Source: Phycisphaerae bacterium (GTDB lineage: Bacteria; Planctomycetota; Phycisphaerae; Phycisphaerales; SM1A02). Taken from it: a stretch of DNA of 45,078 nt. The stretch's first letter is position 1; each line of letters starts with the position of its first letter. Both the position numbers and the translations under genes were made by a program. Below the pieces are notes generated by a model. It worked only from the letters and a program-made list of their open reading frames with translations. It made no database searches and was not told where the DNA came from. The stretch covers positions 1-45,078 of the forward strand of contig VGXN01000009.1 of NCBI GenBank assembly GCA_016873335.1, in the 5' to 3' direction. Of the stretch, positions 3,818 through 34,685 are shown piece by piece.

Positions 3818-4326
3818 AGTGCGATCTCTGCAACAAGCCCGCCGTGGTGCACGAGGTGATCATCCAAGGGGGCAAGTCCACGGAACTGCATCTGTGTGCG
3901 GAACACGCCATCGAAAAGGGGCTCGCTGTCCCGGCGCAGCAGCCGCTCGCGGACATCCTGCCTGCGCTTGGCGGAGTGGTGAAGGTCGAAGGCGTGATCG
4001 GCAAGGGGCAGCAGCAGGCGCGCTGCACGGCGTGCGGATGCACCTTCAGCGAGTTCAAGAAGTCAGGCTCGCTTGGCTGCCCCGCGTGCTACGACTCGTT
4101 CATGCCGATGATCGCGCACGTGATCGAACGGGCGCAAGCGGGCGCCACGGCCCATGTCGGGCGTTCGCCCGCACCCTCGAAGGACGCGGAGCGCGTCCAG
4201 CACCTGCGTTCGAAGTTGATGAGGGAACTGGAGCAGGCGATCGCTGCGGAGCAGTACGAGCGCGCGGCACAACTGCGCGATGAATTGAAGGCTCTCGACG
4301 CGGCGCCGCAGGTGCGCGATGAGTGA
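3814..4326 (+). CDS. mcsA: McsA-like zinc-finger activator of protein-arginine kinase
   Basis: 170 residues. In Bacillus, McsA is the zinc-binding adaptor that activates the McsB protein-arginine kinase and links it to ClpCP proteolysis. The N-terminal CxxC (residues 3-6) and a later LHLCAEH form a first zinc knuckle. A second cluster is made by CTACGC and GCPACYDSF. The C-terminal 35 or so residues match a UVR (UvrB/UvrC) motif, ending AAQLRDELKAL. The ATG at 3814 overlaps the kdsA stop by four bases, and the gene's own stop overlaps the mcsB start by eight. No ctsR or clpC is adjacent, unlike the Firmicute operon, so the regulatory target here is unknown. Confidence 0.93.
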   Translation: MKCDLCNKPAVVHEVIIQGGKSTELHLCAEHAIEKGLAVPAQQPLADILPALGGVVKVEGVIGKGQQQARCTACGCTFSEFKKSGSLGCPACYDSFMPMIAHVIERAQAGATAHVGRSPAPSKDAERVQHLRSKLMRELEQAIAAEQYERAAQLRDELKALDAAPQVRDE

Positions 4327-5665: not shown

Positions 5666-6929
5666 GACTTCGATCGTACTTCGTACCATCCGCCCCCACG
5701 TGCCGAGCCCTGCGCCAGACAGCGAAGTCGATTTGGGCCCGCCGCGGATCGCGGTCGTGACGCATCAGGCGAGCGACGCCCATGTGCAGGTGGCGCGCAC
5801 GCTTGTCACGCGCTTCGGGATGGAGGCGAAGGCGCTCTCCGATCCCGATCCCGCACGCATTGCGATGGCAGTACGCGAGTCGCACGCACTGGTGGTGATC
5901 GGGGCGCCCACCGAGGAACTGCTCAGTTTGACCGCCGTTGCGGAGGCCATCGCTTCCATGCTGCCTGTCGTTGCGCTGTGTGCGGAGTCACCGCCCCATC
6001 GCCTGCCCGCAGGCATCTCCTTCGCGCTCGCTGCCGATGATGGACCGGATCATCTCGCCGTGGCATTGCGTGCGCTGGTCGCGCGGCAGCGCGATGTGCG
6101 ACTGCTGCAACTCGATGCGGCGACTGCCATGCGTTTCTCTGGCGGGCTTCGCCGCGAGATGGAGACGCTGCACGGAGAACTCCAACTGGCAGCGTCCGTC
6201 CAACAGGAGTTCCTGCCGCGCACCCTGCCGACGCTCGGCGGCATGACGAGCGCCGCGCTCTGGCGCCCTGCCGCATTCGTCTCGGGCGACATTTACAACA
6301 GCGTTCGCATCGACGAGCATCACCTCGGCCTTTTTGTCACGGACGCGGTCGGTCATGGCATGCCCGCTGCGCTGCTCACGCTTGTCATCGCGCGGAGCCT
6401 GCAGGTGAAGGAGATCGGCGAAGACTCGTATCGAGTGCTGCCGCCCTCGGAGTCGCTCGCGCGCATCAATGCGGAGATGCTGCAGCGCTCCACGCGCATG
6501 ACGCGCTTTGCGACGGCGATCTATGCGGTAGTCGACACGCGAACGCATGCGCTCAGCGTCTCGTCGGCAGGTCATCTGCCCTTGCTGCACGCGCGCCGCG
6601 GAGGACTGTTTGAACCTGTGGAGACACAGGGCGGTTTGCTCGGCGTCTTCAAGGATGAACACTTCTCGCAAGCGAACATCCAACTCCAACCAGGCGACAA
6701 GGTGCTGCTGTACTCCGACGGATTTGAGCAGGCGTTCTCCGAACAAGGTCAGGGGGCATCCTCGCCTCGACTTCCCAACCGCCGCTACTTGCAGGTCTTC
6801 AACGAGTTCGCATCGCTTGAAGATCCGCAGGCGTTCGTGGATGCGATCACGGGTCGCCTTGAGGAGGAACGCAACATGTTCCCGCTCGTGGATGATGTGA
6901 CGCTGCTGTGCAGCGCGTGGCGACCGTGA
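5664..6929 (+). CDS. PP2C-type (SpoIIE/RsbU-like) serine phosphatase
   Basis: About 421 residues. Residues ~1-145 look like a response-regulator-type alpha/beta domain (RIAVVTHQ, ALVVIGAPTEELL, LPVVALCAE) but without a clear phospho-acceptor Asp. A short coiled linker containing ASVQQEFLPRTLP precedes a SpoIIE catalytic domain. Metal-binding aspartates are visible in FVSGDIY, FVTDAVGHGMPAALLT, LLYSDGFEQA and VDDVTLL. Such enzymes usually dephosphorylate anti-sigma-factor antagonists in partner-switching pathways; no anti-sigma kinase or STAS antagonist is adjacent. An in-frame ATG exists at 5535, but it would run through the pterin dehydratase. The ATG at 5664 is more likely, and a later GTG is possible. 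Confidence 0.88.
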   Translation: MTSIVLRTIRPHVPSPAPDSEVDLGPPRIAVVTHQASDAHVQVARTLVTRFGMEAKALSDPDPARIAMAVRESHALVVIGAPTEELLSLTAVAEAIASMLPVVALCAESPPHRLPAGISFALAADDGPDHLAVALRALVARQRDVRLLQLDAATAMRFSGGLRREMETLHGELQLAASVQQEFLPRTLPTLGGMTSAALWRPAAFVSGDIYNSVRIDEHHLGLFVTDAVGHGMPAALLTLVIARSLQVKEIGEDSYRVLPPSESLARINAEMLQRSTRMTRFATAIYAVVDTRTHALSVSSAGHLPLLHARRGGLFEPVETQGGLLGVFKDEHFSQANIQLQPGDKVLLYSDGFEQAFSEQGQGASSPRLPNRRYLQVFNEFASLEDPQAFVDAITGRLEEERNMFPLVDDVTLLCSAWRP

Positions 6930-8993: not shown

Positions 8994-9911
8994 TCACTCG
9001 AGCGGACGGAGCGACAGACCATGGAGGGCCAACTGCGCCTTGATCTCGTCGAGACTTGTGAGACCGAAGTTCTTCAGTCCCATCAGTTCCGCTTCGGTGC
9101 GGCACGCCAGTTCGCCCAGCGTGTGCGCCCCGAGCAGCGTGATGGCCTTTTTCGCGCGGACGCTGAGTTCCATGGTGGACACTGAAATCAGCAGCACGGC
9201 TTCGTCATGCTGCCCCTTGAGATACTCGAGGTACTCCTTGCGGTACGCCTGATCCTGACCGCCCTCAAGTGCCTGCCCAAGCCGCAGACCGCGCGCGGCG
9301 AGCACGGCCTTGATCTCGCTGATGCTCGACTCGCCGAAGTTCTTGAACGCAAGCAGTTCCGCTTCGGTAATCCGCAGCAGGTCGCCGAGCGTGCGGATAT
9401 CCACCTTCTTCAGGCAGTTGCGCGCACGACCGCTGAGTTCGAAGTCTGTGATCAGCGTGTTGAGGATCAGGTTCTTGCGAACCTCTTGCTGCTGGGCGTC
9501 GGCATCGACCGTCAACTCGGTCACAACGGTGACATCCTTCAGGTACATCCGAGCGCGTGGGTGCGTGGGGTACTCATCCACGACGCGGCGCAGGCATCGC
9601 TCCGCACGCGTGAGTTCGTTCATGTCTTCGTACAGGATGGAGAGATTGATGAGCGCGTTCACAGGCGGCTTCTGTCCGAAGCAGATGCGCTCGTACAACT
9701 CGACCGCCTCCTCGTCTTCGCCAACGCGGTCGAGCAGGCGAGCGAGCGCGAAGATGGTGTCCACTGCGTGATGCTCGTCAAGCGCCTTGCGGTACGACTC
9801 GATGGCTGCGTCGCGGTCGCCCGATGTCTCGCACTGCTGCGCACGGTCGAGGTGTGGCTTGGCCTTCGCAGGATCGCCAGCATGAAGTGGCAACGTGGTG
9901 AATGAAGTCAT
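8994..9911 (-). CDS. TPR protein with two C-terminal RNA polymerase alpha-CTD modules
   Basis: 305 residues. Residues ~15-130 are TPR-like helical hairpins (SGDRDAAIESYRKALDE, GEDEEAVELYERI, NELTRAERCLRRVVDEYP). Two helix-hairpin-helix modules like the alpha subunit C-terminal domain follow, at ~155-212 (ELSGRARNCLKKVDIRTLGD) and ~245-302 (ELSVRAKKAITLLGAHTLGE). Both keep the arginine equivalent to E. coli alpha R265, which contacts UP-element DNA; the Asn at the N268 position is kept only in the first. There is no RpoA N-terminal domain, so this is not the polymerase subunit. A transcription-associated role is inferred. The longer reading begins with TTG at 9920; I use the ATG at 9911. The next gene begins within about 10 bases. 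Confidence 0.88.
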   Translation of the reverse strand: MTSFTTLPLHAGDPAKAKPHLDRAQQCETSGDRDAAIESYRKALDEHHAVDTIFALARLLDRVGEDEEAVELYERICFGQKPPVNALINLSILYEDMNELTRAERCLRRVVDEYPTHPRARMYLKDVTVVTELTVDADAQQQEVRKNLILNTLITDFELSGRARNCLKKVDIRTLGDLLRITEAELLAFKNFGESSISEIKAVLAARGLRLGQALEGGQDQAYRKEYLEYLKGQHDEAVLLISVSTMELSVRAKKAITLLGAHTLGELACRTEAELMGLKNFGLTSLDEIKAQLALHGLSLRPLE

Positions 9912-9977
9912 GGTGGTCAAAAAGCTCTTCGGTGTTGGAAAGAACGTGGGCGCCTCACAGACGCCTCAGACGCAACA

Positions 9978-18071: not shown

Positions 18072-18092
18072 TGTGTACGCGTGCTTCGTACG

Positions 18093-18788
18093 ATGATACG
18101 CATGGGCCTTGCGCAGACCGCTGCCACGAAAGTGATGCCGCTGCTGACGCGTCTCCTCATCGTGGCCGTGCTGCTGCCTCTCGGCTGGCGACTCGCGTTC
18201 TCGACCGTCTCATTCTCAGCCGCAGAGTCCGCTCGACTGCAGGGAATCGGCATCACGACGACGGGCGTGGACTTCTCGAAGGTGCGTTCCACGCTGCCCG
18301 GCAACTCGGCTGCACCGCAGGCTGCACCAACGACGGCGACCGCTGCAGGCGCGCCGATCAGCGAAGGGCGCGCGCTCTACCGAGTTTCGCTGACCGCGGA
18401 CGAAGCTGGGCTGCCCGCGCCTGCGCTCGCGGGCTGGGTGACGGCGGGCCTTCTCCTCGTCGGCAGCGTGCTCGTCGGTGCGGGTGCGTTCACACGAATC
18501 ACCGCCGCGCTCCTCGCTCTGCTGAGCGCGACGGCCTTCTGGGTGGACTGCGTGCCCGCGCTTCGCGGCGGCTACTGGTCGCTCGATGGCGCCTTGCTCG
18601 TGCATGCGGGTGCGCATCTCGCGCTCTTCATCTTGTGCGCGAATCTGCTGCTGCTCGGCGGCGGTGCGCTCAGTGTGGATGCGGTGCTTGGCGGTGGTGG
18701 CGGGCGAAGTGCGAAGGGCGCGGGCAACAAGGGCGGTGGTGGCGGACGCAAGGCGGGCGGCGATGGTCGCGCCGCGGACAAGGAGTGA
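18093..18788 (+). CDS. DoxX-like integral membrane protein
   Basis: About 231 residues from the ATG at 18093; a GTG at 18081 and an ATG at 18102 are alternatives. Hydrophobic segments: MPLLTRLLIVAVLLPLGWRL near the N-terminus, then after a ~70-residue loop three more (GWVTAGLLLVGSVLVGAGAF, ALLALLSATAFWV, HLALFILCANLLLLGG). This is the four-helix DoxX/quinol-oxidase-subunit-like layout, but key residues are not diagnostic. The C-terminus is a glycine/lysine/arginine-rich low-complexity tail with GGGGGR twice. It is the first gene of the VWA-ExbB-ExbD operon, with its stop three bases before the next ATG. Function unknown; a quinone-linked or lipid role would be speculation. Confidence 0.7.
   Translation: MIRMGLAQTAATKVMPLLTRLLIVAVLLPLGWRLAFSTVSFSAAESARLQGIGITTTGVDFSKVRSTLPGNSAAPQAAPTTATAAGAPISEGRALYRVSLTADEAGLPAPALAGWVTAGLLLVGSVLVGAGAFTRITAALLALLSATAFWVDCVPALRGGYWSLDGALLVHAGAHLALFILCANLLLLGGGALSVDAVLGGGGGRSAKGAGNKGGGGGRKAGGDGRAADKE
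18780..18785 (+). promoter_or_regulatory. Ribosome binding site of the VWA-protein gene
   Basis: AAGGAG six bases before the ATG at 18792, inside the last codons of the upstream gene. It confirms the start, and therefore the SxxxH-bearing N-terminus, of the TonB-like VWA protein. Confidence 0.75.
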
Positions 18789-18791
18789 CGG

Positions 18792-20063
18792 ATGCGAGGG
18801 AGGACTGCCGTGTCGTGGGCGCTGTCCGCTGCGGCGCATGCGCTGCTTGCGCTGTTGCTGCTGTCGGCGGGCGTTGCACTGCTTCCAGCGGAACGGAAGG
18901 AGGCGATGCTCGGGGATGGGGCGGCGTTCCTCTTCGAGAGCACGCCCGCCGTGAAGTCCGCACCGCAACCCCCTGCGGTGCAGGCAGCCGTTCTGCCGAC
19001 CCGAGAATCCGCCGCAACCGCAGCGATCGCTGTGCAATCCGCGAGCGACACCGCCGCGCGCATGCAATCCTCCGCGGAGTTGCAGCGCGACACGCTCACC
19101 GCAACGCTGCCGATGGTGGCGCGCCCACTCCAGACTCCATCCACGATGTTCGCGATGGCGGGCATTCGACTGCCCACCGTCAGGCGCGTGGTGTTCCTGC
19201 TCGACGCATCCGGATCGATGATCGGCTGCTATCCCGCCGCGGTCGATGCGGTCATCGAGGCAATCGGCAGGCTCAGCGATGAACAGCAGTTCGCCGTCAT
19301 TCCGTTTCAGGCGGGCGATGCGATCCTGCCCGAAGGAGATGCGCTGCGCCGCGCGGGTGCAACGCTCGGGCAGCGTGGTCGCGATCAGCTGAAGGCGTGG
19401 CTGATCGACAAGATCATCCCATCGGGCGGGAGCAATCCGACGCGTGCCGTGGGTGCTGCGCTCGCGCTGAAACCCGACACGGTCGTGATCGTCAGTGCGG
19501 GACTGCTTGGTGCGGGCGACACGACGCGCGATCGTGATGTGCTCCTCGCGGAACTCGATGCGCTGAATCCGCGGGATGCGCGTTCGGGTCGGCGCCCTGT
19601 GCTGTTTGCGTGCATCCATCTGATGCAGCAGGAGCCGCTTGGCGCGCTTGAACTCGTTGCGCGCGAGCATGGCATGGCGGGTTCCTATCGGTTCCTGCCG
19701 CGCTTGACGGATCTGCGCGCGACGGGCGATGCATCGCTTGCGCTCGACGATGAACTAACGCGCGGCGTTGCAGCCGCGGTGGAACGCGCCAAATCAGGCG
19801 ACATCGCGGCGGCGCGCGTGGCGCTCCTGCGCATCGGGCTCGCGCATCCGCTGCACGAGGCATCGCCCGCCGCACTGCTCGCCGCTGCGGAGATTTCTCT
19901 CAACCATGACCACGACGCTCGCTCCGCGCGGCGACTTGCCGTTGCCGCAGCGCAGGGCGCACGCTCCTTCGGCCTCGGCTCCCTGCAGGAGCGCGCCGAG
20001 GCAATCGCGCGCGATCCCGACGCACCAATCCCGCCCGCACAGACCACGGAAACGAATCCATGA
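18792..20063 (+). CDS. TonB/TolA-like anchored protein with periplasmic VWA domain
   Basis: 423 residues. A short positively charged N-terminus leads into one membrane helix, residues ~8-30, containing S12-A-A-A-H16, the SxxxH motif by which TonB and TolA engage ExbB/TolQ complexes. An Ala/Pro/Gln-rich linker runs to about 125. A von Willebrand A domain follows: VVFLLDASGSM with MIDAS residues D138, S140 and S142, and a threonine in SGGSNPTRAVG (T217). The usual later Asp (SDG) is Ala here (VSAG, about 235-237), so metal binding may be altered. No TonB C-terminal domain is seen. The C-terminal ~100 residues are TPR-like helices. The stop overlaps the ExbB start (ATGA). Inferred role: force-transducing partner of the ExbB/ExbD channel. 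Confidence 0.85.
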   Translation: MRGRTAVSWALSAAAHALLALLLLSAGVALLPAERKEAMLGDGAAFLFESTPAVKSAPQPPAVQAAVLPTRESAATAAIAVQSASDTAARMQSSAELQRDTLTATLPMVARPLQTPSTMFAMAGIRLPTVRRVVFLLDASGSMIGCYPAAVDAVIEAIGRLSDEQQFAVIPFQAGDAILPEGDALRRAGATLGQRGRDQLKAWLIDKIIPSGGSNPTRAVGAALALKPDTVVIVSAGLLGAGDTTRDRDVLLAELDALNPRDARSGRRPVLFACIHLMQQEPLGALELVAREHGMAGSYRFLPRLTDLRATGDASLALDDELTRGVAAAVERAKSGDIAAARVALLRIGLAHPLHEASPAALLAAAEISLNHDHDARSARRLAVAAAQGARSFGLGSLQERAEAIARDPDAPIPPAQTTETNP

Positions 20064-20809
20064 TGACAGTCACTCTTTCAACAGTGCTTCTTGCGCCGTA
20101 CGCCACCGACCTTTGCTCATCGCTCGCCCCCCCGCTGCTGACCTCACTCGATGGCGCCCGCGTGTTCTTCTACTCCGCGAGCACGATGCCCGATGGCTCC
20201 GTGCGAACGGAGTGGATCGGCAGCGCGATCATCTGGATCCTCATCGCGATGAGTCTCGTGAGTGTCGGCATGATCATCTCGGGCGCGCTCGCGCATCGGA
20301 CAGCGGCGATCGCGCCGCCGAAGGCGCTCGCCGCATTCGGCGGCGGCGGCGGCGGACGCGCAGCGCTCGAATCCGCTGCTGCGCTGCCGTGTGACGCTGG
20401 GCGCATCGCGCGTGCGGCGTCCGAGGCATGGATGCGCGGTCGGAGCGAACTCGTCGATGCCGCCGAACGCACCGCGGTCGAGTGCGCCGCGCGTCGATTC
20501 CGCACGCTGGAACCGCTGCATGTGCTCGCGCAGATCAGCCCGATGGTCGGGCTCTTCGGCACGGTCTACGGCATGATCGTTGCGTTCCAGGCGGTCGCCG
20601 CGTCGGGCGGACAGGCGGACCCTGCGCTGCTCGCCGGCGGCATCGGCACGGCGCTCGTGACCACGTTCTGGGGACTCGTGGTCGCGGTCCCCGCGCTCCT
20701 CGCCTACGCGCTGCTTCGCAACCGCGTGGACGCGGCGCTGGCGAGCACGCTCGAGAGCGTCCTTCACGCCGCCAAGGATGCGCCCGAAGTGGGGAGCGGG
20801 GCGCGGTGA
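20060..20809 (+). CDS. exbB: MotA/TolQ/ExbB proton-channel protein
   Basis: 249 residues. The first membrane helix lies at about 53-75 (GSAIIWILIAMSLVSVGMII). A cytoplasmic region with a run of six glycines (94-99) follows, then the signature helices LAQISPMVGLFGTVYGMIVAF (~157-176) and GIGTALVTTFWGLVVAVPAL (~195-213), typical of ExbB/TolQ. With ExbD it forms a pentamer that conducts protons and drives periplasmic force transfer. The start overlaps the VWA gene and the stop overlaps exbD (GTGA). A second ATG at the next codon (20063) is equally possible. Unlike classical ExbB it has ~50 residues before the first helix. Confidence 0.94.
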   Translation: MMTVTLSTVLLAPYATDLCSSLAPPLLTSLDGARVFFYSASTMPDGSVRTEWIGSAIIWILIAMSLVSVGMIISGALAHRTAAIAPPKALAAFGGGGGGRAALESAAALPCDAGRIARAASEAWMRGRSELVDAAERTAVECAARRFRTLEPLHVLAQISPMVGLFGTVYGMIVAFQAVAASGGQADPALLAGGIGTALVTTFWGLVVAVPALLAYALLRNRVDAALASTLESVLHAAKDAPEVGSGAR

Positions 20810-21267
20810 AGCCGGCGGTCGCGCGCATCTCGGTGATCGATGCGGATCTCACGCCGCTCATCGACTTGGCGTTCCTGCTGATCGTCTTCTTCGTACTCGT
20901 TGCGCGCATGAGCGGCGAACAACTTCCCGCGATCCCTTTGCCCCAACCGAACGATGTTGCCGCGACTCCCGCTGGCGCTGGGCGCCGTCTCGCGGTGAAT
21001 GTGCTTGCGCAAGGTGGCAGCGCGCTCCTCACGTTCGGTGGCGAGCGCTTTGCGACCGATGCCTCGGGGCTCGACCGACTCGCATCCGCGATCGCGCAGC
21101 GCCTGCGCAGTGATCCGCAGGTGCCCGTCGACATTCGGGCGGACCGTTCGCTTGCGTACCGCGAGGTCGAACCCGCCATCGATGCGATCACCGCCGCAGC
21201 AGCACAGGTGGGAACGCGAGTGACGATCCGTGTCTGCGCGCTGCAGGCGGAGGGTGGCACGCCATGA
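20806..21267 (+). CDS. exbD: ExbD/TolR family protein (first copy)
   Basis: 153 residues from a GTG start that overlaps the exbB stop (GTGA at 20806-20809). One N-terminal membrane helix (~17-35) carries the essential Asp in LTPLID (D20), the proton carrier of the ExbB/ExbD and TolQ/TolR motors. The remaining periplasmic domain ends with a TolR-like fold (VPVDIRADRSLAYREVEPAID). The next gene is a second ExbD, again overlapped by four bases. Two different ExbD chains could form a heterodimer within the ExbB pentamer, as in systems with paired ExbD genes. Confidence 0.93.
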   Translation: MKPAVARISVIDADLTPLIDLAFLLIVFFVLVARMSGEQLPAIPLPQPNDVAATPAGAGRRLAVNVLAQGGSALLTFGGERFATDASGLDRLASAIAQRLRSDPQVPVDIRADRSLAYREVEPAIDAITAAAAQVGTRVTIRVCALQAEGGTP

Positions 21268-21737
21268 ACGCCGCCCGCGCCATGCACGGCACTCGCGTGC
21301 GCCTTGCGATGACGCCGATGATCGACGTCGTCTTTCTGCTGCTGGTGTTCTTTGTGTGCACGGTGCGCTTCGAGCGCAACGAAGCGGTGTACACGCTGGA
21401 CTTGCCGCAGCGCGGACGCACCGCAGATCCGCTGGCGCTGCAGGAGCGTGCGCTCGTGATCCGCGTCGGTGCGCGCGCGGGCGATGCAGTGCCGATCGAC
21501 GTGCAGGCGGATGGGCTGCGTGAACGCCCCGCATCGTTGGATGCACTGGCAGCGACACTCATGCTCGTTCGGCGAGGCGCCGCTCCGGACGCGGCGAACG
21601 CGGGGCTCTTTGTGGCGGACCATCCCGTGCTCATCGCGCCCACGAGCGACTGCGGCTGGCAGGATGCCGTCGACGCGTTCAACGCAGCCGTGCGCGCCGG
21701 ATTCCGCAACATCGGTTTTGCACGGAGTGGTGCATGA
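21264..21737 (+). CDS. exbD: ExbD/TolR family protein (second copy)
   Basis: 157 residues. The membrane helix (about 18-35) contains MTPMIDVVF with the key Asp at residue 21. The periplasmic part is divergent from the first ExbD: it has an ~11-residue longer loop (RRGAAPDAANAGL) and ends in APTSDCGWQDAVDAFNAAVRAG, replacing the usual peptidoglycan-proximal TolR segment. The ATG overlaps the first exbD stop, and its own stop overlaps the next gene (ATGA), so five consecutive genes are translationally coupled. Confidence 0.92.
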   Translation: MNAARAMHGTRVRLAMTPMIDVVFLLLVFFVCTVRFERNEAVYTLDLPQRGRTADPLALQERALVIRVGARAGDAVPIDVQADGLRERPASLDALAATLMLVRRGAAPDAANAGLFVADHPVLIAPTSDCGWQDAVDAFNAAVRAGFRNIGFARSGA

Positions 21738-24406
21738 GCAGGTCCTTGCCGCCACGCCCACTGGCACGGAGTGCATTCGCCGCGGCGGCTGCGTTCACCC
21801 TGATCGCGCCGACGGGCGCCACCATCGCCTTCGCTGCGGCTTCCGCTTCGGTGCAGTCCACCCCGACAGACACCGCATCACAGCGACTTGCGGAAGATGA
21901 CTTTCTCCGCGGCATCGGCGATCTCGCCCTGCTGCGCGCGCTGGATGATCTGGACCGAACCGAGCCGGCGCGTGATCCGCAGTCGACCGAGGCACTGCTC
22001 CGCGCGATCGCGCGCGAGCGAGCCACGCTGCGCAGCGATGCTTTCTCGCTCCCCGAGCGGTTGCAGTCGCTCGATCGATTGCGCACGACGCGAGCCGCGC
22101 TGGTGGCGCGCGACACGCGTGATCCCTTCTCGGTGCTCTGGATCGGCGATGCGGCGGAGGACGAACTCTCGCTCGCGTTCTTCGGCGCGGATGGCGGTGC
22201 GGATGCGATCGCAGGGTCGTCGGGGTCCGCGCTCGTGCCGAGGGCACGAGCTGCGCTCGACCGCGTGCTCGCCCTGCTCGATACCGCCGACGCGCGCGCC
22301 GCGTCCATCCCGCCGGACAGCGTTCCCGCTGCAACGCCGCTCGCGCAGCGCCTCGACAGCGATGCGCGTGCGCGTCGTCCATTCCTGCGCGCCGCCGTGC
22401 GCGCCATGCTGCTTGCGATGGAGCGGAGCAGCGACTCGGCGGCGGCGAGTCGGGAGCGACCCGCGAAGGGCGCCGCGCTCCTGCGCGAACTCACCGAGCT
22501 GCGCCCTCAACTTCCGCCTCGCCTGCGCCCGGAGAGCGATCTTGCGGAGGTTGCTGCGGCTGCGGTGGCGGCGCAGTGCGATGCCGCGCGGTACGCCGCC
22601 GCACGCATCATTGGTGCGCGTGATCCGACGCTGACTGTCCTCGCGCGGCTCCTCAGCTGCGACTGCCTCGTGAACGAGCGCCGCGGTGAGGAGGCCGTTC
22701 GTCAGCTCACCGCGCTGCATGCTGTGCAAGGACTCTCGACGCCGCTTCGGCTGCTCGTGGCGGATGCGATCGTGCGCACCCGAGGAACGCTCGGCAAGTC
22801 ACCGACCACTGAACTGACGCTGCGCCCCTGGATCGACACGCTCGACCGCGCGCAGGCTTCGGAGCGCGCGGGCGTTCGGCGCGCGGTGCTCGAACGCATC
22901 GCTGGCGCCGCTCGCGGACAACCTGCGTACGGCGATCTTCCTCCGCTTGCCGAGGTTGCCCTCGCGCGCGAAGCTCTGCTGGCGAATCCCGCGGACCGCG
23001 CCGCGCTCGCCCGCCTCGCGCCACACGCCACTCAAACACGCAACGCCACCGCGCAGGTCGCCGCTCTCGAAACGATCGCGGACGCAGTGGTGGCTGCGCG
23101 AATGTGGCCCGAGGCTGCCGATGCGTACCGTGCGCTTGCACTCGCGGCGTCGCAGGAACCCGTCTCGCTTCCGGCGATGCAGGCGGCGCTCGACATCGAA
23201 CTCGCACTCGACCGCGCAGACCCTGCGGGACGCGAGGCGCAACTCGAAGAGACGCTCGGCTTGGCCATCAACCGTTTCCCGGAGTTGCCCACGCGACCGG
23301 CATCACTCGCGCAGCTTGAGGCGCTTCAGATACGCCGATTCTTGCAGCAGGCGCTGGCTGCAGGACCCGAGGAACGCGCATCGTTCGCCCAGCAAGCGGC
23401 GAATGCTGCGCAGCGACTGACGGATCTCGACGCTGCTGCGCGCCGCGCAGGGCTCGATCCCGGCAACCGAGTGAGCGCGACTGCCGAGATGGCGCGCACA
23501 GCCGCCGACTTCCTCGCGCCCAGCCCCGCGCAGGCGATCCGCGCGACTGCCCTGCCCTCGCGCGAGCAGTGGGAGTCATGGAGCAAGTTCGATGCGCAGC
23601 GCATCCTGCGTTTGCGTCTCGAACGCGCCGCGACGCACGCGGCAGAGCCGGCGCGAACCATGACGGCTGAACTCGCGCTTCTGCCTGAATCCATGCTCGA
23701 TGCACGAACACCCGCCGCGCTCACTGCCATCACCAACTTCATGAGGCGGCAGGTCGAGCTGGCGGGCGAGGCCAATCTGCAAGGCAGCCCGCTGTCGGTG
23801 CAGCTTGCTCGGCGCGCGCTCGCAGCGGGGCAGGCGTGGGAAGCGCTCTCGGCCACTCGAGGCGGAGATGGATCGCCCCAACCGCTCACGGCCGCGTTCG
23901 ATCGCCTCGCCGCAGATGCCGCGCTGCTCGCCCAAGAGTGGGAGAACGCCATCGCACGCGCCGAGACCATCGCGCTTGCGAACGCAGCATCGGTTGACGA
24001 CCAGCGTCGGCTCGTCGAGGCACTCTCCTTCGCGCACCGAGACGCTGTTCGGCAGGGGCTCCAGGATCTCCGCGATGAACGGCGTACGCGCGGCATGAAC
24101 GCGGCGCGCGCGCTCGAGGCGATGGCGCCCGATGGAACCCCCGCGTGGTGGCTCGCGCAGAGCGTTCAGCTGCGAATTGCCGAGGAATCGGGGCGAGGCG
24201 GCGAGCCGGTCCTTGCATCGATCGCTCGACTCCGCGCAGCGGATGCATCGCTCGGCGGTTCGCTCATGAGCGCGGACATCCTCGAGACCGAACGCGCAGC
24301 CATGGCAAGCGTCGCGCGCATGAAGCAGAACGCACAAGTCCTCCCTGCAGCGAGAGACGGCGAGTCACAAGACTCACCCGCCGCCGCGCTGCCCGTCAAT
24401 CGCTGA
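21734..24406 (+). CDS. Large exported alpha-helical repeat protein of unknown function
   Basis: 890 residues. The N-terminus looks like a Sec signal (about 1-37, [20 protein letters not shown]). The rest is almost entirely helical, rich in Ala, Arg, Glu and Leu, with repeated pairs of helices reminiscent of TPR/HEAT arrays (such as [19 protein letters not shown] and [17 protein letters not shown]). No catalytic motif was seen. It closes the VWA-ExbB-ExbD operon, with its start overlapping the second exbD stop. It may be a periplasmic scaffold or substrate receptor for that motor; this rests on context alone. Its 3' end overlaps the convergent UVR-protein gene by 11 bases. Confidence 0.8.
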
Positions 24407-26244: not shown

Positions 26245-27369
26245 TCAACTCTTGCGGTAGAACGGGAGCGGCTCGACGCGCGCCGCGACGGTCGTTCCAC
26301 GCAGGTCAACTTCCACTTCGCTGCCGACATCAGCGAGCGCCGCATCGATGAACGCCATCGCGATCGGACGATCCAGACTCGGAGAGAGGCAGCCACTCGT
26401 CACGCGACCAACGACTGCCCCACCGCGTCGCACTTCCATGCCCTGCCGTGCGCTCCGGCGCCCTTCGAGTCCGAGCCCCACCAACTTCCGCTTCGGTCCA
26501 TCGCGTGCAATGCGCCGAAGCGCATCTTGCCCGATGAAACGCCCTGCACGCTCATCGTCGTCACCCTTGTCCAACTTCACCGCGAATCCAAGCCCCGCGG
26601 AGATCGGATCGGTTTGCTCATCGATCTCGTGCCCGTACAGCGGCATGCCCGCTTCCATGCGCAGCGTGTCACGCGCCCCAAGCCCCACGGGCTTGATGAT
26701 GCTCGAACCATCCTTCGCGCCCTTGAGGAACATGCCAAGCGCCATTTGCGCCATCGCGCTTCCGAGAATCACCTCCACACCGTCCTCGCCCGTGTAGCCC
26801 GTGCGACTGACGATCATCTTCACGACGATCAGGCTCTTCTGCACGAAGCGGTAGCGTTTGAGTTTCGGAATCTCGCTCGACAGCGTGCTGATGATGTCCA
26901 TCGCCTTCGGTCCCTGCAGCGCCACCATCGCGGTGGATTCGGTCTGATCCTCCAACTTGAACGCCATCTCGCCCTTGACCGCGGCGAAGTGCGCGAGAAG
27001 CTTCGCGCGGTTCGAAGCGTTGCAGACCATCAGGTACTCCGCCTCATCAAAGCAGGAGATGATCACATCATCGAGACAGCCGCCCTGCTCGTTGCACACG
27101 AGCCCATAGCGACACTGCCCCACCTCCATGCCGAGCACTTGCCGTGTACACACATGATCGAGGAACTTGCGCGCGTGGCGACCTGAGAAGCGCAGCCTGC
27201 CCATGTGCGATACATCAAAGAACCCTGCGGCCGTCCGGCAATGTCGATGCTCCTCGATGATCGATGAGTACAGCAGCGGCATCTCCCATCCGGCGAAATC
27301 CACCATCTTGGCGCCGTGCTCGAGATGGAACGAATGAAGCGCTGTGCGCTGCAGTGAGGCGGTTGTCAT
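26245..27369 (-). CDS. gcvT: Glycine cleavage system T protein (aminomethyltransferase)
   Basis: 374 residues. GcvT transfers the methylene group from the H-protein-bound aminomethyl intermediate to tetrahydrofolate, releasing ammonia. Family features: FHLEHGAKMVDFAGWEMPL at the start, FFDVSHMGRL, GGCLDDVIIS with the catalytic Asp, ALQGPKA, SRTGYTGEDGVE, and PVGLGARDTLRMEAGMPLYG. The start ATG at 27369 gives the usual N-terminus; the longer frame upstream overlaps bamA and is rejected. No gcvH or gcvP is nearby and the 103-base leader does not show a glycine riboswitch core. It is convergent with the sigma factor gene, 25 bases away, with no clear terminator. Confidence 0.95.
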   Translation of the reverse strand: MTTASLQRTALHSFHLEHGAKMVDFAGWEMPLLYSSIIEEHRHCRTAAGFFDVSHMGRLRFSGRHARKFLDHVCTRQVLGMEVGQCRYGLVCNEQGGCLDDVIISCFDEAEYLMVCNASNRAKLLAHFAAVKGEMAFKLEDQTESTAMVALQGPKAMDIISTLSSEIPKLKRYRFVQKSLIVVKMIVSRTGYTGEDGVEVILGSAMAQMALGMFLKGAKDGSSIIKPVGLGARDTLRMEAGMPLYGHEIDEQTDPISAGLGFAVKLDKGDDDERAGRFIGQDALRRIARDGPKRKLVGLGLEGRRSARQGMEVRRGGAVVGRVTSGCLSPSLDRPIAMAFIDAALADVGSEVEVDLRGTTVAARVEPLPFYRKS

Positions 27370-27472
27370 GGAAGAAAGCCTAGCGTCCGCGGTCGGGTGG
27401 CGTTCACACATCCGAGCGCGCCTGGCAACAGTCCGCCGACGAGCGCACCCGCCACGGGTAGCCTTCGCTGCA
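27370..27472. promoter_or_regulatory. Divergent intergenic region, gcvT / bamA
   Basis: 103 bases, GC-rich throughout, serving both gcvT and the bamA-lpxA operon. No recognisable riboswitch, sigma-E-type site or convincing -35/-10 pair was found by eye. bamA lacks a strong Shine-Dalgarno sequence. Confidence 0.35.
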
Positions 27473-29953
27473 ATGAGGGCGTGGCGCCATGCTCGACTCC
27501 AAGCGGCACTCTGGACGGTCTGCGCGGTCGCGTGGATCGCGGCTGTTCCGTCCAGCGCCGAAGCGACCGACGCGCGTTCGTGCGCGAGCCTCGCAATCGA
27601 CGACGAATCGCTTGCCGACCGTCCCGTCACGGAAGTCGTGCTGCAGGGACTCAACCGTGTCACCGAGCAGGAAATCCGCAACAACATGCGCGTGGCGGCT
27701 GGGCAGCCCTTCGATGCGTCGGCCGTGAAGGATGACATCGCCACGCTCTACCGCCTCGGACACTTCGATGCGGTCAGCGCCGACGCGGAACTGCTCGATG
27801 ATGGCACGGTGCGCGTTCGCTACATCCTCGTCGAACAGCCGATCGTGCGCGATATTCAGGTGGTCGGCAACAAGGTCATCTCCGATCAGGAACTGCGCGG
27901 CGTGATCTCGCTGTATCCAGGCGGTCCGCGTGATGACTTCCTGCTGGAACGCGCCGTCGAGAAGATCCGCAACCTCTACCGCAGCAAGGGAAACTATCTC
28001 GTGGATGTGGAGGTCGATGAATCGCGTCTGGTGGAAACCGGCATTCTCATCTTCCGCATCGTGGAAGGACCGCGCGTGCGTATCCGCGAGATCGTGTTCT
28101 CCGGCAACCAACGGTTTGATACGAATCAACTCGGCGCGCAGATCAAGACAAAGCCGTGGGTCTTCATCTTCTCGATGGGCAATCTCGACGAGAGCCAACT
28201 GATCGATGACGTGGCCGCACTCGACAAGTTCTACAAGGATCGCGGCTTCATCGATGTGCGCGTCGACAAGCGCGTCGAGATTTCGGACAACGGCAAGGAG
28301 GCGAAGGTGGTCTTCCTCATCGCCGAGGGGCGGCAGTACCGACTGCGGTCCGTGTCCATTGAAGCCGCCGACGGCACGCCAGAGGGAAAGCCGCGCGTGA
28401 TTCACGCAGAGCAGCTGCTTGGCCTGATGACCATTCGACCGGGCGATGCGTTCACCGAAGACAAGTTGGCGAGTTCGGTCGAAGCGCTCAAGCGCGCCTA
28501 CGAAGTCATGGGCCATGTCGATGCGCGCGTCGATCAGACATGGATTCGTATCGGCGAGGAACCGGAAGTCGACATGGTGGTCTCGGTGCGCGAGGCAACG
28601 GCAGTCCGCGCGGGACTCGTGCGTATCCAAGGGAACTACCTCACGAAGGACAATGTCGTGCGGCGCGCGCTTCGCATCCAACCTGGGCGACCGCTCGACG
28701 GTCTCGAAGTCGAGCGCGCCAAGATTCGCCTCGAGGAAACGGGGCTCTTCAGTTCAGCGACCGTGACGCCGCAAATCCCCGCCGCGGACGCTCCAGACCC
28801 GACCACGCGCGACGTGCTCGTCGAGGTGAAGGAGCGGAACACGGGCAGCGTCAACTTCGGCGTCGGCGTCGGCACCGACACGGGGTTCTTCGGCACAGTT
28901 TCGCTGAACCAGCGCAACTTCGACATTGCCGACACGCCGCAGACGCTCGATGAACTGCTGAACGGGCGTGCATTCCGCGGCGCAGGCCAATCGTTCTCGC
29001 TGGCAATCTCTCCTGGTATCGATGTCTCCAACTACTCGATCAGCTTTGGCGAACCACATCTGCTTGACTCCGACATCGGCTTCGGCACAAGCCTGCTTTA
29101 CCGCAAACGTGTGTATGTCGGCTTCAACGAAGACCGCATCGCTGGTTCCTTCGCACTGTCCCGTCAGTTCGGCGAAATGTGGGTCGGGTCCGTCCGCACC
29201 ACGCTGCAGTCGGTGACACTGACCAACCTCGCGTCCTCGACTCCTGTCGTGGTGTACGACCAGCGCGGCCCTGCATTCATCAATTCGGTCGGCGTCTCGA
29301 TGGCTCGAACGAATGTCGACAACCTGCAGCGCCCCACCCGCGGTACGCGGTTCGAGGCGGATGTCGCCTACTTCGGATTGTTCGGCGGTCCCTACCAGTT
29401 TCCGCTGACGGCGGCCAGTTGGACAACATGGCTGCCGCTCGCGGAAGACTTCTTCGGTCGCAAGAGCGTGCTGAAACTGAACACCAGCGCGGGCTACCTG
29501 TACAACAGCAACGCACCCGTCTCCGAGCGCTTCTATCTCGGAGGTCGCTCCCTTCGCGGCTTTGTGTTCCGCTCCGTGAGCCCGCTCAGCCCAGAAGCAA
29601 TCGGGGCCGATCCGCCAACGCCCGCGACGATCTACCCCACCACAACAACCGGCACTCCAGACGGGCTCCCCAACGGTGATCCGATCGGCGGCATCTTCCG
29701 CTTCTTTGCGGGGGCGCAGTACGAAGTGCCCGTGTTCGACAAGTTCATTACGGCGGTGGCGTTCTGCGACAGTGGAACGGTCACGGACAGTCTCACGCTG
29801 AACCCCTACCGCGTCTCGGTCGGCGGCGGCCTGCGGCTCTACATTCCGCAACTCGGACAAGCCCCGCTCGCGTTCGATTTTGCCGTGCCCATCGTGAAGT
29901 ACACCACCGATCAGACGGAAGTCTTCAGTTTCACGGCGGAACTGCCCTTCTGA
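27473..29953 (+). CDS. bamA: Outer membrane protein assembly factor BamA (Omp85 family)
   Basis: 826 residues. A signal peptide (about 1-29, LWTVCAVAWIAAVPSSAEA) precedes five POTRA-like domains (~35-430, first one VTEVVLQGLNRVTEQEIRNN) and a C-terminal 16-strand-type barrel (~440-826). The conserved L6 loop motif is present as LRGF (694-697) in FYLGGRSLRGFVF, and the protein ends in phenylalanine (TAELPF), as outer membrane barrels usually do. It inserts beta-barrel proteins into the outer membrane. The start ATG at 27473 is the first that leaves gcvT intact; an in-frame ATG upstream would overlap gcvT. The next gene is a Skp-like chaperone 47 bases on, the classical bamA-skp-lpxD order. Confidence 0.95.
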   Translation: MRAWRHARLQAALWTVCAVAWIAAVPSSAEATDARSCASLAIDDESLADRPVTEVVLQGLNRVTEQEIRNNMRVAAGQPFDASAVKDDIATLYRLGHFDAVSADAELLDDGTVRVRYILVEQPIVRDIQVVGNKVISDQELRGVISLYPGGPRDDFLLERAVEKIRNLYRSKGNYLVDVEVDESRLVETGILIFRIVEGPRVRIREIVFSGNQRFDTNQLGAQIKTKPWVFIFSMGNLDESQLIDDVAALDKFYKDRGFIDVRVDKRVEISDNGKEAKVVFLIAEGRQYRLRSVSIEAADGTPEGKPRVIHAEQLLGLMTIRPGDAFTEDKLASSVEALKRAYEVMGHVDARVDQTWIRIGEEPEVDMVVSVREATAVRAGLVRIQGNYLTKDNVVRRALRIQPGRPLDGLEVERAKIRLEETGLFSSATVTPQIPAADAPDPTTRDVLVEVKERNTGSVNFGVGVGTDTGFFGTVSLNQRNFDIADTPQTLDELLNGRAFRGAGQSFSLAISPGIDVSNYSISFGEPHLLDSDIGFGTSLLYRKRVYVGFNEDRIAGSFALSRQFGEMWVGSVRTTLQSVTLTNLASSTPVVVYDQRGPAFINSVGVSMARTNVDNLQRPTRGTRFEADVAYFGLFGGPYQFPLTAASWTTWLPLAEDFFGRKSVLKLNTSAGYLYNSNAPVSERFYLGGRSLRGFVFRSVSPLSPEAIGADPPTPATIYPTTTTGTPDGLPNGDPIGGIFRFFAGAQYEVPVFDKFITAVAFCDSGTVTDSLTLNPYRVSVGGGLRLYIPQLGQAPLAFDFAVPIVKYTTDQTEVFSFTAELPF

Positions 29954-30000
29954 GCGCGGTGCGCTGTATCGACGCGGGGCAGTGCCGTACACTCCCGCGG

Positions 30001-30654
30001 ATGATTCCAGCTTCCTATCGGTCCCCGCTTGCAATCGCTGCGCTCGCTGCCGGACTCCTCGTGGTTGCGGGCAGTTCTGCGTACACGGCGGTCCGTTTGG
30101 CTGCCGCCCCATCCGCCGTCGCCAATGTCGACATCCGCCGCATTTTGGACAAGATCCAGCAGCGCGGCGAGATGGAGATCGAGTTGACGCAGATGGGCAA
30201 CAAGTTTGAGCAGGAACTCAAGACGCGCAAGGAGCAACTCGAGACGCGCGCGCGCGAGTCCGATGCGATCACCGATCCTTCCGAGCGGCAGAAGTTGCGC
30301 GATGAACTTGCGCTTGAGCAGCTCCAGTTGAAGGAGTGGGCGACGGTGAAGCAACAAGAAGTGGACCGCGAGCAAGCGCTGCGTTGGGAGCAGCTGTACC
30401 GCCTCATCGTGTCCGAGGGCGACAAGTTGGCGCAGTCCGAGGGCTACCAGTATGTGCTCGTCTATGACGGTACGGCGGAGTTCCAGCGTGATCGCCGAAG
30501 TCAAGCCCCACTTGCACAGCAGGTCTTCGACCAGATCGCGCGCCGCCGCGTGCTCTATGCGTCGAAGGCTGATGACCTCACCGAAAAACTCATTCTTCGC
30601 ATGAACAACGCACGCGCCACGCCCGGCACCACTTCCACTTCGCCCAAGCCCTGA
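30001..30654 (+). CDS. skp: OmpH/Skp-like periplasmic chaperone (first copy)
   Basis: 217 residues. An N-terminal hydrophobic signal/anchor (~7-29, LAIAALAAGLLVVAGSSAYT) is followed by VANVDIRRILDKIQQRGE, the short beta strand and start of the trimerisation module of OmpH. A long charged coiled coil (~55-130) forms the tentacles, and a return segment GYQYVLVYDG closes the body. Skp holds unfolded outer membrane proteins in the periplasm for BamA. The start ATG at 30001 is the first codon that gives the signal. The gene lies between bamA and a second, diverged Skp, with a 68-base gap to the latter. Confidence 0.88.
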   Translation: MIPASYRSPLAIAALAAGLLVVAGSSAYTAVRLAAAPSAVANVDIRRILDKIQQRGEMEIELTQMGNKFEQELKTRKEQLETRARESDAITDPSERQKLRDELALEQLQLKEWATVKQQEVDREQALRWEQLYRLIVSEGDKLAQSEGYQYVLVYDGTAEFQRDRRSQAPLAQQVFDQIARRRVLYASKADDLTEKLILRMNNARATPGTTSTSPKP

Positions 30655-30722
30655 TCCCACCCTGCACACGCTTCCCGCGCCCACGCGTTCACCCCTCTCG
30701 TCCGACTCTGGAGTACCTCGAC

Positions 30723-31361
30723 ATGAACAAGCCCGCATGGATCATCGCAGGCGTCGCACTCGGCGCACTGCTCACGCTCGCAGCAGGATTCCCGACGGCG
30801 CCCGCCGTCATCGCATCCGTTGACCTCGAGAAGGTCTACCGATCACTCGATCAGATCAAGGCGTCCGAGGCCAAGAGTCTTGGCGTGAAGAACACGCTCG
30901 AGAAGCAGCTGACTTCCATGAACGACGAAATCCGCGGTTTGCAGGAGGATCTCGACAGCTACCAGGTCGGATCGCCCGCGCACAACGAGGCGCAAGGCAA
31001 AGTGATCCTGAAGGCCGGCGATCTCTCCGCGCTTCAGAACTTCGCTGAACTGAAGATGCAGTCGGAACAGGCGAACACGCTCCGCGAGACCTACGCGACG
31101 ATCCGCAGTACGTGCGCAACTCTCGCCAAGGAGCACAAGATCGACTTCATTCTGCTCGACGACACGATTCCGACCATCACACCTTCGGACGTGCAGGGCA
31201 CCATGGCGCAGATCAACGGCCGACGATTGCTGTTCAGCAATCCGTCGCTCGACATCACGGATCTCCTGATCGAGCGCATGAACGCCGACTTCCGTGCGGC
31301 GAATCCAACGGTCGCGCCCGCTCCCGCCGCAGCCCCCGCCGCGGCCGCAACCAAAGGCTGA
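30723..31361 (+). CDS. OmpH/Skp-like periplasmic chaperone (second copy)
   Basis: 212 residues with the same plan as the preceding gene: N-terminal hydrophobic segment (~5-23, [18 protein letters not shown]), [18 protein letters not shown], a coiled-coil pair (~45-120) and a strand [10 protein letters not shown], ending in an Ala/Pro-rich tail. It is clearly a paralog of the first copy but diverged in sequence. GGAG lies 9 bases before the ATG at 30723. The stop is 5 bases before the lpxD ATG, so it is coupled to lipid A synthesis. The two copies may serve different clients or form mixed trimers; this is inference. Confidence 0.88.
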
Positions 31362-31366
31362 ACACG

Positions 31367-32440
31367 ATGGCGTTGACCGCACGGGAGATCGCGACCAAAG
31401 TCGGCGGAACCCTCGAGGGTTGCGGCGACCATGTCGTGCGCGGTGTCGGCGATCTGCGCGGAGCACGCGAAGACGATGCGACCTACATCGCCGATGCCAA
31501 CTACGCGCGGCTCTGGCAGGACTGCCGTGCGCGCGTTGCGCTTGTTTCCGAGGGTGTGGATGTGGCTGGACATGACCCATCCAGACGGACGCTCGTTCGT
31601 GTTGCGCAGGCCGAGATCGCGATGATCTCGCTGCTCGAGTCGTTCGCGCCACCGCCCGAAGCGCCGGCGCCTGGCATTCACGCCACGGCGTGCGTCGAGA
31701 CAGCGGGCCTCGATCCGAGTGTCTCCGTTGGTCCGTATGTATGGATCGCACGCGGCTGCACGATCGGCGCGGGTGCGGTCATCCACTCCGGCGCGCGCAT
31801 CTATGCGGGCGTCCGCATTGGAACGCGAACGGTCATTCATGCGAACGCAGTCATCCGTGAACGGTGCGAGATCGGGAGCGATGCGATCGTCCACGCAGGC
31901 GCGGTGATCGGCACGGAGGGGTTCGGCTACCGCCCCTGTCCGAGCGGCAAGGGACTGCTGCGTATTCCACACCTTGGCAACGTCGTCCTCGAAGATGGTG
32001 TCGAGATCGGCAGTTGCACATGCATCGACCGCGGCACATTCGGCAGCACGCGCATCGGGCGCGGCACGAAGATCGACAACCACTGCCAGATTGGGCACAA
32101 CGTGCAGATCGGCCATTCCACCGTAATCGCAGGGCTCTGCGGCATCGCAGGCTCCTGCACCATCGGCGACTGGGTTCGAATCGGAGCCGGGAGCGGCATC
32201 GCCGATCACCGGAATGTCGGCAGCGGCGCGCAGCTCGCGGCGCGCACGGCGCTCATGCATGATGTGCCCGCAGGCGAAATCTGGGGCGGCATGCCTGCGC
32301 GCGAAATCAAGGTTGAGATGCGCCATGTGTTGGCGCTGCAGAAGCTCTCGCCGCTCTTGAAGGACCTGCAGCGGCTTGTGGAGCAGTCGCGCGCGGCGCG
32401 TTCATCCGCGACAGCAGGTTCACCACCCGCTGCGCCATGA
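31367..32440 (+). CDS. lpxD: UDP-3-O-(3-hydroxyacyl)glucosamine N-acyltransferase
   Basis: 357 residues. Third step of lipid A synthesis: adds the second hydroxyacyl chain, from acyl-ACP, to the amine of UDP-3-O-acyl-glucosamine. The N-terminal uridine-binding domain (~1-100) is followed by a left-handed beta-helix of hexapeptide repeats (~100-320) and a C-terminal helix. The likely catalytic His is H244 in QIGHNVQIG, at the position of E. coli H239. The ATG at 31367 is chosen because an earlier in-frame start would read through the skp gene. Its stop overlaps the lpxC-fabZ ATG by four bases (ATGA). Confidence 0.95.
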
Positions 32441-33849
32441 CTTCGATGCCACCCGAGCAAGATGCCACCGCTGAAGGTCTCACCGCAGCAGCCGCGCGGT
32501 CGCCGTCGAAGTCCTCACACGAAGCCACGCCAAGCACGGGGCGCCAGCGCACGATCGCTGCATCCACCATCGTTCGCGGGAAGGGACTGCTCTTCGGCGT
32601 CGATGCGGAAGTCGAGTTCGTTCCTGCGCCGCCAGGATCAGGGATTGCATTTGAGCGGATCGATCTGACGCCGCCTGTTCTGCTGCCCGCGCTGATTGAT
32701 CACGCCGTCTCGCGTCCGCGGCGATCCACGCTGCGCGTCGGCGACGCCAGCATTGATACGGTCGAACACTGCCTCAGTGCGCTCGTTGGACTCGGCATCG
32801 ACAATGTGCTGCTGCGAATGCGCGGCCCTGAGCTGCCCTGCGGTGACGGCTCTGCGCTGCCGTTCTTCGAGCCGCTGCGATCGGTTGGCACCGTGGAGCA
32901 GGATGCGCCACGGCAAGTGCATCGCATCACCGAACCGATCGTGCTCGAGGAAGAGGACTCGATGATCGCCGTCCTGCCATCGGATGAACCTGGCATGCGG
33001 GTTTCGTATGAACTCGACTACTCGAGCGTCTCGCGCCACATTGGGCGGCAGAACTGCTCATTCGATCTCGCGCGCGACGACTACGCATCGCAGATCGCAC
33101 CCGCGCGCACCTTCTCGCTGCGGGCTGAGGCGGAGGCACTCTGGGCGGCGGGCATGTGCCGACACCTGACACCGCGCGATGCACTGGTCGTTGGCGACGA
33201 CGGACCGATGGAGAACGCCTTCCGATTCGCGGATGAGTGCGTTCGGCACAAGGTGCTCGATGTCATCGGTGACCTCGCACTCTCCGGCGTGTCGATCCAA
33301 GGCAAGGTCGTGGCGCAGCGTTCCGGGCATGACCTGAATCGGCGGCTCGCGCGCCGCATTCGTCAGCAGGTGGAGGCCGCCGCGCGCCTGCGGCTGGCGG
33401 AAACCGGTCGCGTGCTCGATGCGCGCGCCATCGCACGCATCATGCCGCACCGCTACCCGATGCTGCTGATCGACCGCGTGGTGGAGATCGAAGGCAACCG
33501 CCGTGCCGTTGGCATCAAGAATGTCTCGATCAACGAGCCGTTTTTCCCCGGCCACTATCCAGGAACGCCCATCATGCCCGGCGTGCTCATCGTTGAGGCG
33601 ATGGGCCAACTGGGCGGCCTGCTCCTGTCGCAGACGCTCGAGCACACGGGCAAGGTCGCCGTTCTGCTTTCGCTCGACAAGGTGAAACTGCGCAGGGCGG
33701 TCACACCTGGTGATCAGCTCGTCATGGAAGCGGAAACCCTCCGCGCAAGCGCCCGCAGCGCTGCCGTACGCTGTCGGGCATGGGTACAAGGCAAACTGGC
33801 GGCGGAAGCACAGATCCGCTTCATGATGATCGACCCGGAGTTCGAATGA
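32437..33849 (+). CDS. lpxC: LpxC-FabZ fusion: UDP-3-O-acyl-GlcNAc deacetylase + (3R)-hydroxyacyl-ACP dehydratase
   Basis: 470 residues made of two enzymes. The LpxC part (~40-315) removes the acetyl group from UDP-3-O-acyl-GlcNAc, the committed step of lipid A synthesis. Its zinc site is complete: H111 in VEHCLSAL, H271 and D275 in [11 protein letters not shown]298 in SGHDLNRRL matches E. coli H265 with identical spacing. The FabZ part (~325-470) dehydrates 3-hydroxyacyl-ACP: [13 protein letters not shown], catalytic H373 in [14 protein letters not shown] and E387 in [10 protein letters not shown]. Such fusions are known in Bacteroidetes and related groups and place two enzymes that compete for 3-hydroxyacyl-ACP on one chain. 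The first ~40 residues are disordered. The stop overlaps lpxA. Confidence 0.96.
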
Positions 33850-34685
33850 TGGACAGAATTCACCCCACAGCAATCATTGACCCCACGGCAGAGATCGCCA
33901 CATCCGTGACCATCGGCGCGTATTGCACCATCGGTCCGCGGGTGGTCATCGGCGAGGATTGCGTGCTGCGCAGTCATGTCCATGTCACCGCCATGACGCG
34001 CATGGGCCGTGGAAACACGATCCATCCGTATGCGATCGTCGGAGGCGACCCGCAGGACCTCAAGTTCCACGGCGAACCGACGTGGCTTGAGATGGGGGAC
34101 TTCAACACCATCCGCGAACACGCCACCATTCACCGCGGGACGGGGAACGGCGGCGGCGTGACGCGCCTCGGATCACACAATCTGGTGATGGGCAATGTGC
34201 ACATCGCCCACGACACCATGATCGGCAACCACTGCATCTTCGCCAACAACGCCATGCTCGCCGGACATGTGCATGTGGATGATCACGCCAACATTGGCGG
34301 CGGTGCAGGTCTTCATCACTTTGTGCGCATCGGCTACTGCGGTTTCGTTGGTGCGATGTCGCGCGTATCGAAGGATGTTCCGCCGTTCATGCTCGTCGAA
34401 GGCAGCCCTGCGGTGATTCGCGGCTACAACGCCGTCATGATGAGCCGCGTCGGCATGCCCGAGAGCGAACTCGAAGCGGTCAAGGAGGCGTACAAGCGGA
34501 TTTACCGCGCCAAGGGCGGCGACGGCACGAGCAAGATCACGGGGCTGCTGCGCGATTATCCGATGTCGAAGGCGCTCCGCCGCATCGCCGAGTCGATCGA
34601 AGCGGTGAACAACGGACTGAATGGGCGTTCACTCGAGACCGCCCGCAAGGACAACAAGCGAGCCGCTCGGACTGCGCGCGCCTGA
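33846..34685 (+). CDS. lpxA: UDP-N-acetylglucosamine O-acyltransferase (LpxA)
   Basis: 279 residues. First enzyme of lipid A synthesis, transferring a 3-hydroxyacyl chain from ACP to UDP-GlcNAc. A long run of hexapeptide repeats (for example IDPTAEIATSVTIGAY, GNVHIAHDTMIGNHCIFANN) forms a left-handed beta-helix. The catalytic His is H122 in HIAHD, equivalent to E. coli H125. The C-terminal helical part (SELEAVKEAYKRIYRA) is also typical; the ~20-residue Arg/Lys-rich tail is extra. The ATG at 33846 overlaps the preceding stop; an ATG at the next codon is equally possible. It is followed by a 78-base gap. lpxB is not in the window. Confidence 0.95.
   Translation: MMDRIHPTAIIDPTAEIATSVTIGAYCTIGPRVVIGEDCVLRSHVHVTAMTRMGRGNTIHPYAIVGGDPQDLKFHGEPTWLEMGDFNTIREHATIHRGTGNGGGVTRLGSHNLVMGNVHIAHDTMIGNHCIFANNAMLAGHVHVDDHANIGGGAGLHHFVRIGYCGFVGAMSRVSKDVPPFMLVEGSPAVIRGYNAVMMSRVGMPESELEAVKEAYKRIYRAKGGDGTSKITGLLRDYPMSKALRRIAESIEAVNNGLNGRSLETARKDNKRAARTARA

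Follow-up and report, generated by a model that had tools for sequence, protein, structure and literature searches.

What does a von Willebrand factor A (VWA) domain do at the end of a TonB-like membrane helix, in an operon that also encodes the ExbB and ExbD subunits of a proton motor? The question is raised by six genes at positions 18081-24406 of a 45,078-nucleotide stretch of DNA from a Phycisphaerae bacterium (contig VGXN01000009.1, assembly GCA_016873335.1), hereafter the window. A check of the open reading frames (ORFs) bears out the coordinates and the common forward strand that a first-pass annotation had given for them, in the order DoxX-like gene, VWA gene, exbB, exbD, exbD and a gene for an exported protein of 890 aa. 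The operon probably encodes a trans-envelope machine of the ExbB-ExbD or TolQ-TolR type, driven by the proton motive force, in which the VWA protein is an arm docked through the S12/H16 face of its membrane helix.

A class of vWA transducers that are anchored in the inner membrane by a helix like that of TonB or TolA has already been described (Williams-Jones et al., 2025; Mol Biol Evol msaf138, PMC12204202). Their gene clusters contain a TolQ-like gene, two TolR-like genes and a TPR gene, Planctomycetes are among the hosts, many members carry an SHLS motif, and in an AlphaFold3 model of the complex the histidine of the helix contacts the motor (Williams-Jones et al., 2025). The window operon shows most of the class features that could be checked, with S12 and H16 but not the full SHLS, and is a member of this class, closest to its first family (Tichowtungia type), not a new system; the earlier remark that no named system has this set of genes is thus superseded.

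The survey on which the present analysis draws comprises 61 genomes, including the source genome (2.0 Mb in 228 contigs, about 90% complete). Statements about whole genomes rest on genome searches, and absences established by profile search in these incomplete genomes are suggestive only. Matches to the VWA protein occur in 56 of the 61 genomes, the source genome counted, and no plasmid-borne copies were found by tblastn.

The anchor helix and its link to motor genes

The VWA protein (18792-20063, forward strand, 423 aa; Pfam VWA_3, E = 1.2e-7, above the cut-off) consists of a transmembrane helix with the motif W9-x-x-S12-x-x-x-H16, a linker of about 100 residues, a VWA domain at residues ~130-305 and a helical C-terminus at ~305-423. 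The N-terminal helix reads MRGRTAVSW9ALS12AAAH16ALLALLLL, which places S12 and H16 where the annotation had them, and no match to the TonB C-terminal domain (TonB_C) is found in the protein, again as claimed, or in the source genome by profile search. The metal ion-dependent adhesion site (MIDAS) of the VWA domain reads DASGS at 138-142, and its DxSxS pattern is conserved. The C-terminal helical extension is specific to the source genus. In other genera a small TPR gene lies between the VWA gene and exbB, and a fusion of that gene as the origin of residues 305-423 was rejected by profile comparison (probability 0.5%).

The motif helix is retained in 67 of 69 planctomycete VWA matches, with serine in 64 and tryptophan in 50, and only two of the 69 are without such a helix. 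The motif finder looked for [S/A/T/G]xxxH inside a hydrophobic stretch, and the histidine is therefore fixed by construction in the 67 positives. The motif is kept even in proteins that are only ~23-35% identical to the window protein. Across 46 aligned VWA proteins of the order, W9 is found in 39, S12 in 43 and H16 in all 46, and these are the only positions conserved above 80% in the first ~130 residues; the linker varies freely, with a motif-to-MIDAS distance of 108-134 in most of the aligned set.

The motif also tracks the motor genes. Within 4.5 kb of the VWA gene, exbB is present for 58 of 69 motif-bearing genes versus 0 of 21 motif-free ones (Fisher p = 7.6e-13, a value to be taken only as a guide because the genes compared share ancestry, the control set includes short contigs, and the sets were drawn by their rank of similarity to the query). 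The control consisted of 20 loci of lower-ranking VWA genes, encoding 21 VWA proteins, of which 19 have no motif and none of these has exbB nearby; one control locus, L128, pairs an SxxxH VWA protein with exbB-exbD-exbD. This co-occurrence and the retention of the motif support the suggestion, made earlier from the window, that the VWA protein would be the force-transducing arm. At another locus of the control set, L116 (G048:C85), an orphan VWA gene with an AxxxH helix and no motor neighbour lies at 5754-6509 on the forward strand.

The gene order VWA-exbB-exbD-exbD, all on one strand, is found in the fetched neighbourhoods of nearly every family member and of most of the taxonomic order. Families f2 and f4 mostly depart from it, with TPR genes beside the VWA gene but no adjacent motor. 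In other families, the VWA gene and exbB are separated by a further VWA gene or by the gene for an exported protein of ~340-400 aa, which in some members resembles TPR proteins. The gene set is beyond chance, since it recurs with the motif across the phylum. At four loci of family f5 (L045, L046, L047 and L050), the VWA-motor cluster adjoins genes for an ABC transporter ATPase and a protein with multiple transmembrane segments, as well as a ~730-800 aa protein that mostly has a single such segment.

Motor subunits, their lineages and the flanking genes

The motor subunit encoded at 20060-20809 (forward strand, 249 aa; Pfam MotA_ExbB, 2.2e-25) is closest to TolQ in NCBIfam, although far below any equivalog cut-off, and TolQ is also its best match in the PDB (8odt, 4.2e-11). 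By alignment, the polar-ring threonines are kept as T168 and T202, and T197 occupies the position of the glutamate in the GIAEAL sequence of TolQ. The two ExbD/TolR-like subunits, at 20806-21267 (forward strand, 153 aa, GTG start; Pfam ExbD, 1.5e-13) and 21264-21737 (forward strand, 157 aa; Pfam ExbD, 6.8e-15), belong to different subtypes, the latter with a DHP(I/V) signature. Both retain the pore aspartate, as had been noted (D20 in TPLID20 and D21 in TPMID21), a residue unchanged across an alignment of 12 ExbDs.

A tree of 61 ExbB-like proteins contains two groups of VWA-linked motors that are relevant to the window operon, and the motors are inherited along these lines. The first unites the window type with the motor of an f4 locus, L089, which has no VWA gene beside it (support 98/94). 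Because this motor groups with those of the window type, f4 kept its motor when the locus was split. The second (support 99/95) contains members of f1, f2 and f4 together with another locus of the source genome, L083 (G000:C102:1-4530), where the order is VWA (with an SLPFH motif), TPR-like, exbB, exbD, exbD. As judged from these sequences, there are two old paralogous VWA-motor lineages, both present in the source genome.

Genes 2-6 of the operon are joined by four overlaps of 4 bases. The annotation had described such overlaps, and they hold among the last five genes; at the first junction, gene 1 stops 3 bases ahead of gene 2, and an AAGGAG resembling a Shine-Dalgarno sequence precedes the ATG of the VWA gene. 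Gene 1 (18081-18788, forward strand, GTG start) encodes a DoxX-like membrane protein of 235 aa with about four transmembrane segments. Its Pfam DoxX match (E = 1.2e-4) scores 23.0 bits, slightly below the cut-off of 23.6, and a homologue at L073:4981-5718 is matched by DoxX at 7e-12. Relatives in families f1-f4 often have a DoxX-like gene in this same position, ahead of the VWA gene.

The last gene (21734-24406, forward strand) encodes the 890-aa protein, which has a signal-like N-terminal segment and is most plausibly a diverged TPR solenoid of an exported family found throughout the order. Its assignment to the TPR family comes from iterated profiles; the window protein itself has no Pfam match, and Pfam TPR models match 9 of 20 members of the family. 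A homologous large exported protein is co-located in 36 of 40 loci of the order by iterated profiles, which bears out the association of this gene with the cluster beyond the window. The tail, RLRxxDxxLGG, recurs across families, and the structural model is all-helical at low confidence.

The proposed machine and its alternatives

In the proposed machine, ExbB would form a pentameric channel with the two different ExbDs as its central pair. The VWA protein would use its S12/H16 helix to dock against the exterior of ExbB, by analogy with TonB and TolA, its linker of ~100 residues would span part of the periplasm, and the VWA domain would be the working tip. In the periplasm, the exported TPR solenoid probably partners either the motor or the tip. 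The sequences themselves show the gene set, the near-invariant motif, its link to motor genes and the descent of the motor lineage, whereas the docking of H16 on ExbB, the transmission of force and what the tip acts on are inferred.

Several observations weigh against such an arm. The spacing in TonB is S16-H20-L27-S31. At the positions of the leucine and the second serine of this SHLS face, the window protein has L23 but G27; among the homologues, the third position is leucine in 25 of 67, and the fourth has no conserved serine. The third acidic site of the MIDAS, LSDN in f5 and f6, is replaced by VSAG or VSTG in the source genus, which makes metal-dependent ligand binding by the tip doubtful there; the tip may instead bind its partner without metal. 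Eleven of the 69 motif-bearing VWA genes have no adjacent exbB, and kinship among the genomes inflates the Fisher p value. Finally, single-chain AlphaFold2 models, built with 3-4 close homologues as input, are poor for both the VWA protein (pLDDT, the predicted local distance difference test, 45) and the 890-aa protein (pLDDT 52).

A VWA protein combined with TPR proteins also recalls the BatA/B-TPR-type periplasmic assemblies of aerotolerance operons, in which case the ExbB and ExbD neighbours would have a separate job. This composition is seen at the f2 and f4 loci where a TPR gene, but no exbB, adjoins the VWA gene. Nevertheless, exbB-exbD-exbD lies inside the overlapping operon, the association between motif and motor is strong, and no AAA/MoxR ATPase gene was recognised beside the window operon among the ORFs examined, which together make this reading improbable. 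It is extremely unlikely that the VWA protein is instead an ExbD-like partner inserted in the pore, as in the second vWA family: although VWA proteins with a single N-terminal helix do occur beside TolQ-like genes (Williams-Jones et al., 2025), the window operon already has two ExbDs with the pore aspartate, and its VWA helix has SxxxH and no aspartate.

The remaining alternatives concern what the machine does. With its TonB-like helix and motor, in a genome with no detected TonB C-terminal domain, the VWA protein could replace TonB and energise TonB-dependent outer-membrane receptors. Such a substitution is quite improbable: the TonB-receptor Plug domain was likewise not detected in the source genome, an absence that at ~90% completeness is not proof, and across the genus the joint loss of TonB_C and Plug leaves the VWA system in place. 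By profile search, 29 of the 61 genomes lack TonB_C and 29 lack Plug. Both are missing from 25 genomes and, since 22 of these encode the VWA protein, the system does not depend on the presence of TonB-dependent receptors. For the class, a role in adhesion or gliding similar to that of the Myxococcus Agl-Glt/CglB apparatus, where the VWA domain of CglB is an adhesin beside a TolQ/R-type motor, has been suggested (Williams-Jones et al., 2025). Here such a role is very unlikely: the system is kept in small planctomycete genomes (~2 Mb) and by most of the order, which better fits a housekeeping task, and the neighbourhoods inspected contain no recognised Glt-type gene, although no direct test of this reading was made. 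A candidate of another kind, a catalogued defence system (Zorya and others), was set aside, with no PADLOC match for any of the six proteins.

For the motor-driven VWA arm, a core envelope task such as tethering of the outer membrane or peptidoglycan, or remodelling, is the most likely role. It is favoured over receptor-dependent import because the genome is without a detected TonB domain and Plug. A run of outer-membrane biogenesis genes at 27344-34682 on the forward strand, encoding BamA (Omp85 with POTRA), an OmpH/Skp-like protein, LpxD, an LpxC-FabA-like fusion and an LpxA-like protein, is evidence for a lipid A outer membrane. TolB_N (PF04052) was detected in none of the 61 genomes, with E. 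coli, Caulobacter and Bacteroides positive as controls, and no canonical Tol-Pal system was recognised. In Planctomycetota, the vWA class is widespread, has a near-invariant motor-contact motif that tracks motor genes, and persists in small genomes from which the TonB system has gone. These properties, in a group without detected TolB, mark the system as one that may serve a core role in the envelope which has so far escaped recognition. A larger claim, that this is a core energised envelope system of the Planctomycetota in two ancient paralogous lineages, which would persist where TonB and its receptors are lost and replace the missing Tol-Pal in outer-membrane tethering or constriction, is a tentative and less likely possibility.

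Elsewhere in the window, an ATP:guanido phosphotransferase catalytic domain of the McsB-like kind is encoded at 4319-5362 (forward strand), and a fusion of a SulP-type sulfate permease with a carbonic anhydrase domain at 38548-40827 (forward strand). On the reverse strand, the gene at 8997-9920 combines TPR repeats (TPR_2, 1.5e-11) with two stretches of RNA polymerase alpha C-terminal domains (RNA_pol_A_CTD, 1.3e-34) in Pfam.

Comparison with known systems

The E. coli TonB-ExbB-ExbD system shares with the window operon the homology of ExbB and ExbD and the SxxxH in the anchor helix. The window operon differs in having two ExbDs and no TonB C-terminal domain, in a genome with no Plug detected. 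Tol-Pal (TolQ-TolR-TolA-TolB-Pal-CpoB) resembles it in that the motor best matches TolQ and the cluster includes a periplasmic TPR protein. Here, however, that protein is far larger than CpoB, the cluster has no TolA C-terminal domain, and the surveyed genomes have no TolB_N. The Agl-Glt machinery of Myxococcus likewise combines a TolQ/R-type motor with a VWA protein, but CglB is a surface adhesin and is not known to be anchored to the motor, and no Glt genes were recognised near the window system.

Closer parallels are found within the vWA class itself. The second family (TPH-vWA, with TolQ only) also carries the VWA domain on a transmembrane helix beside a TolQ-like gene, but it is without ExbD/TolR and supplies its own pore aspartate (Williams-Jones et al., 2025), whereas the window operon has two ExbDs and an SxxxH helix with no aspartate. 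The present data add to the description of the class the depth of its conservation, the link of motif and motor against a control, and a second paralogous system; the added independence from TonB, TonB receptors and TolB is suggestive only, given that it rests on the profile absences. With the first family, the operon shares a single transmembrane helix with a TonB/TolA-type histidine, a linker of ~100 residues and a C-terminally placed VWA domain, as well as neighbouring genes for a TolQ-like, two different TolR-like and a TPR protein. It differs from that family in gene order, as the vWA gene lies downstream of the motor in clusters of the Planctomycetes-Verrucomicrobia-Chlamydiae group (Williams-Jones et al., 2025) and upstream of it in the window, and the source genus is further set apart by its helical C-terminal extension, its degenerate third MIDAS site and the DoxX-like gene in front.

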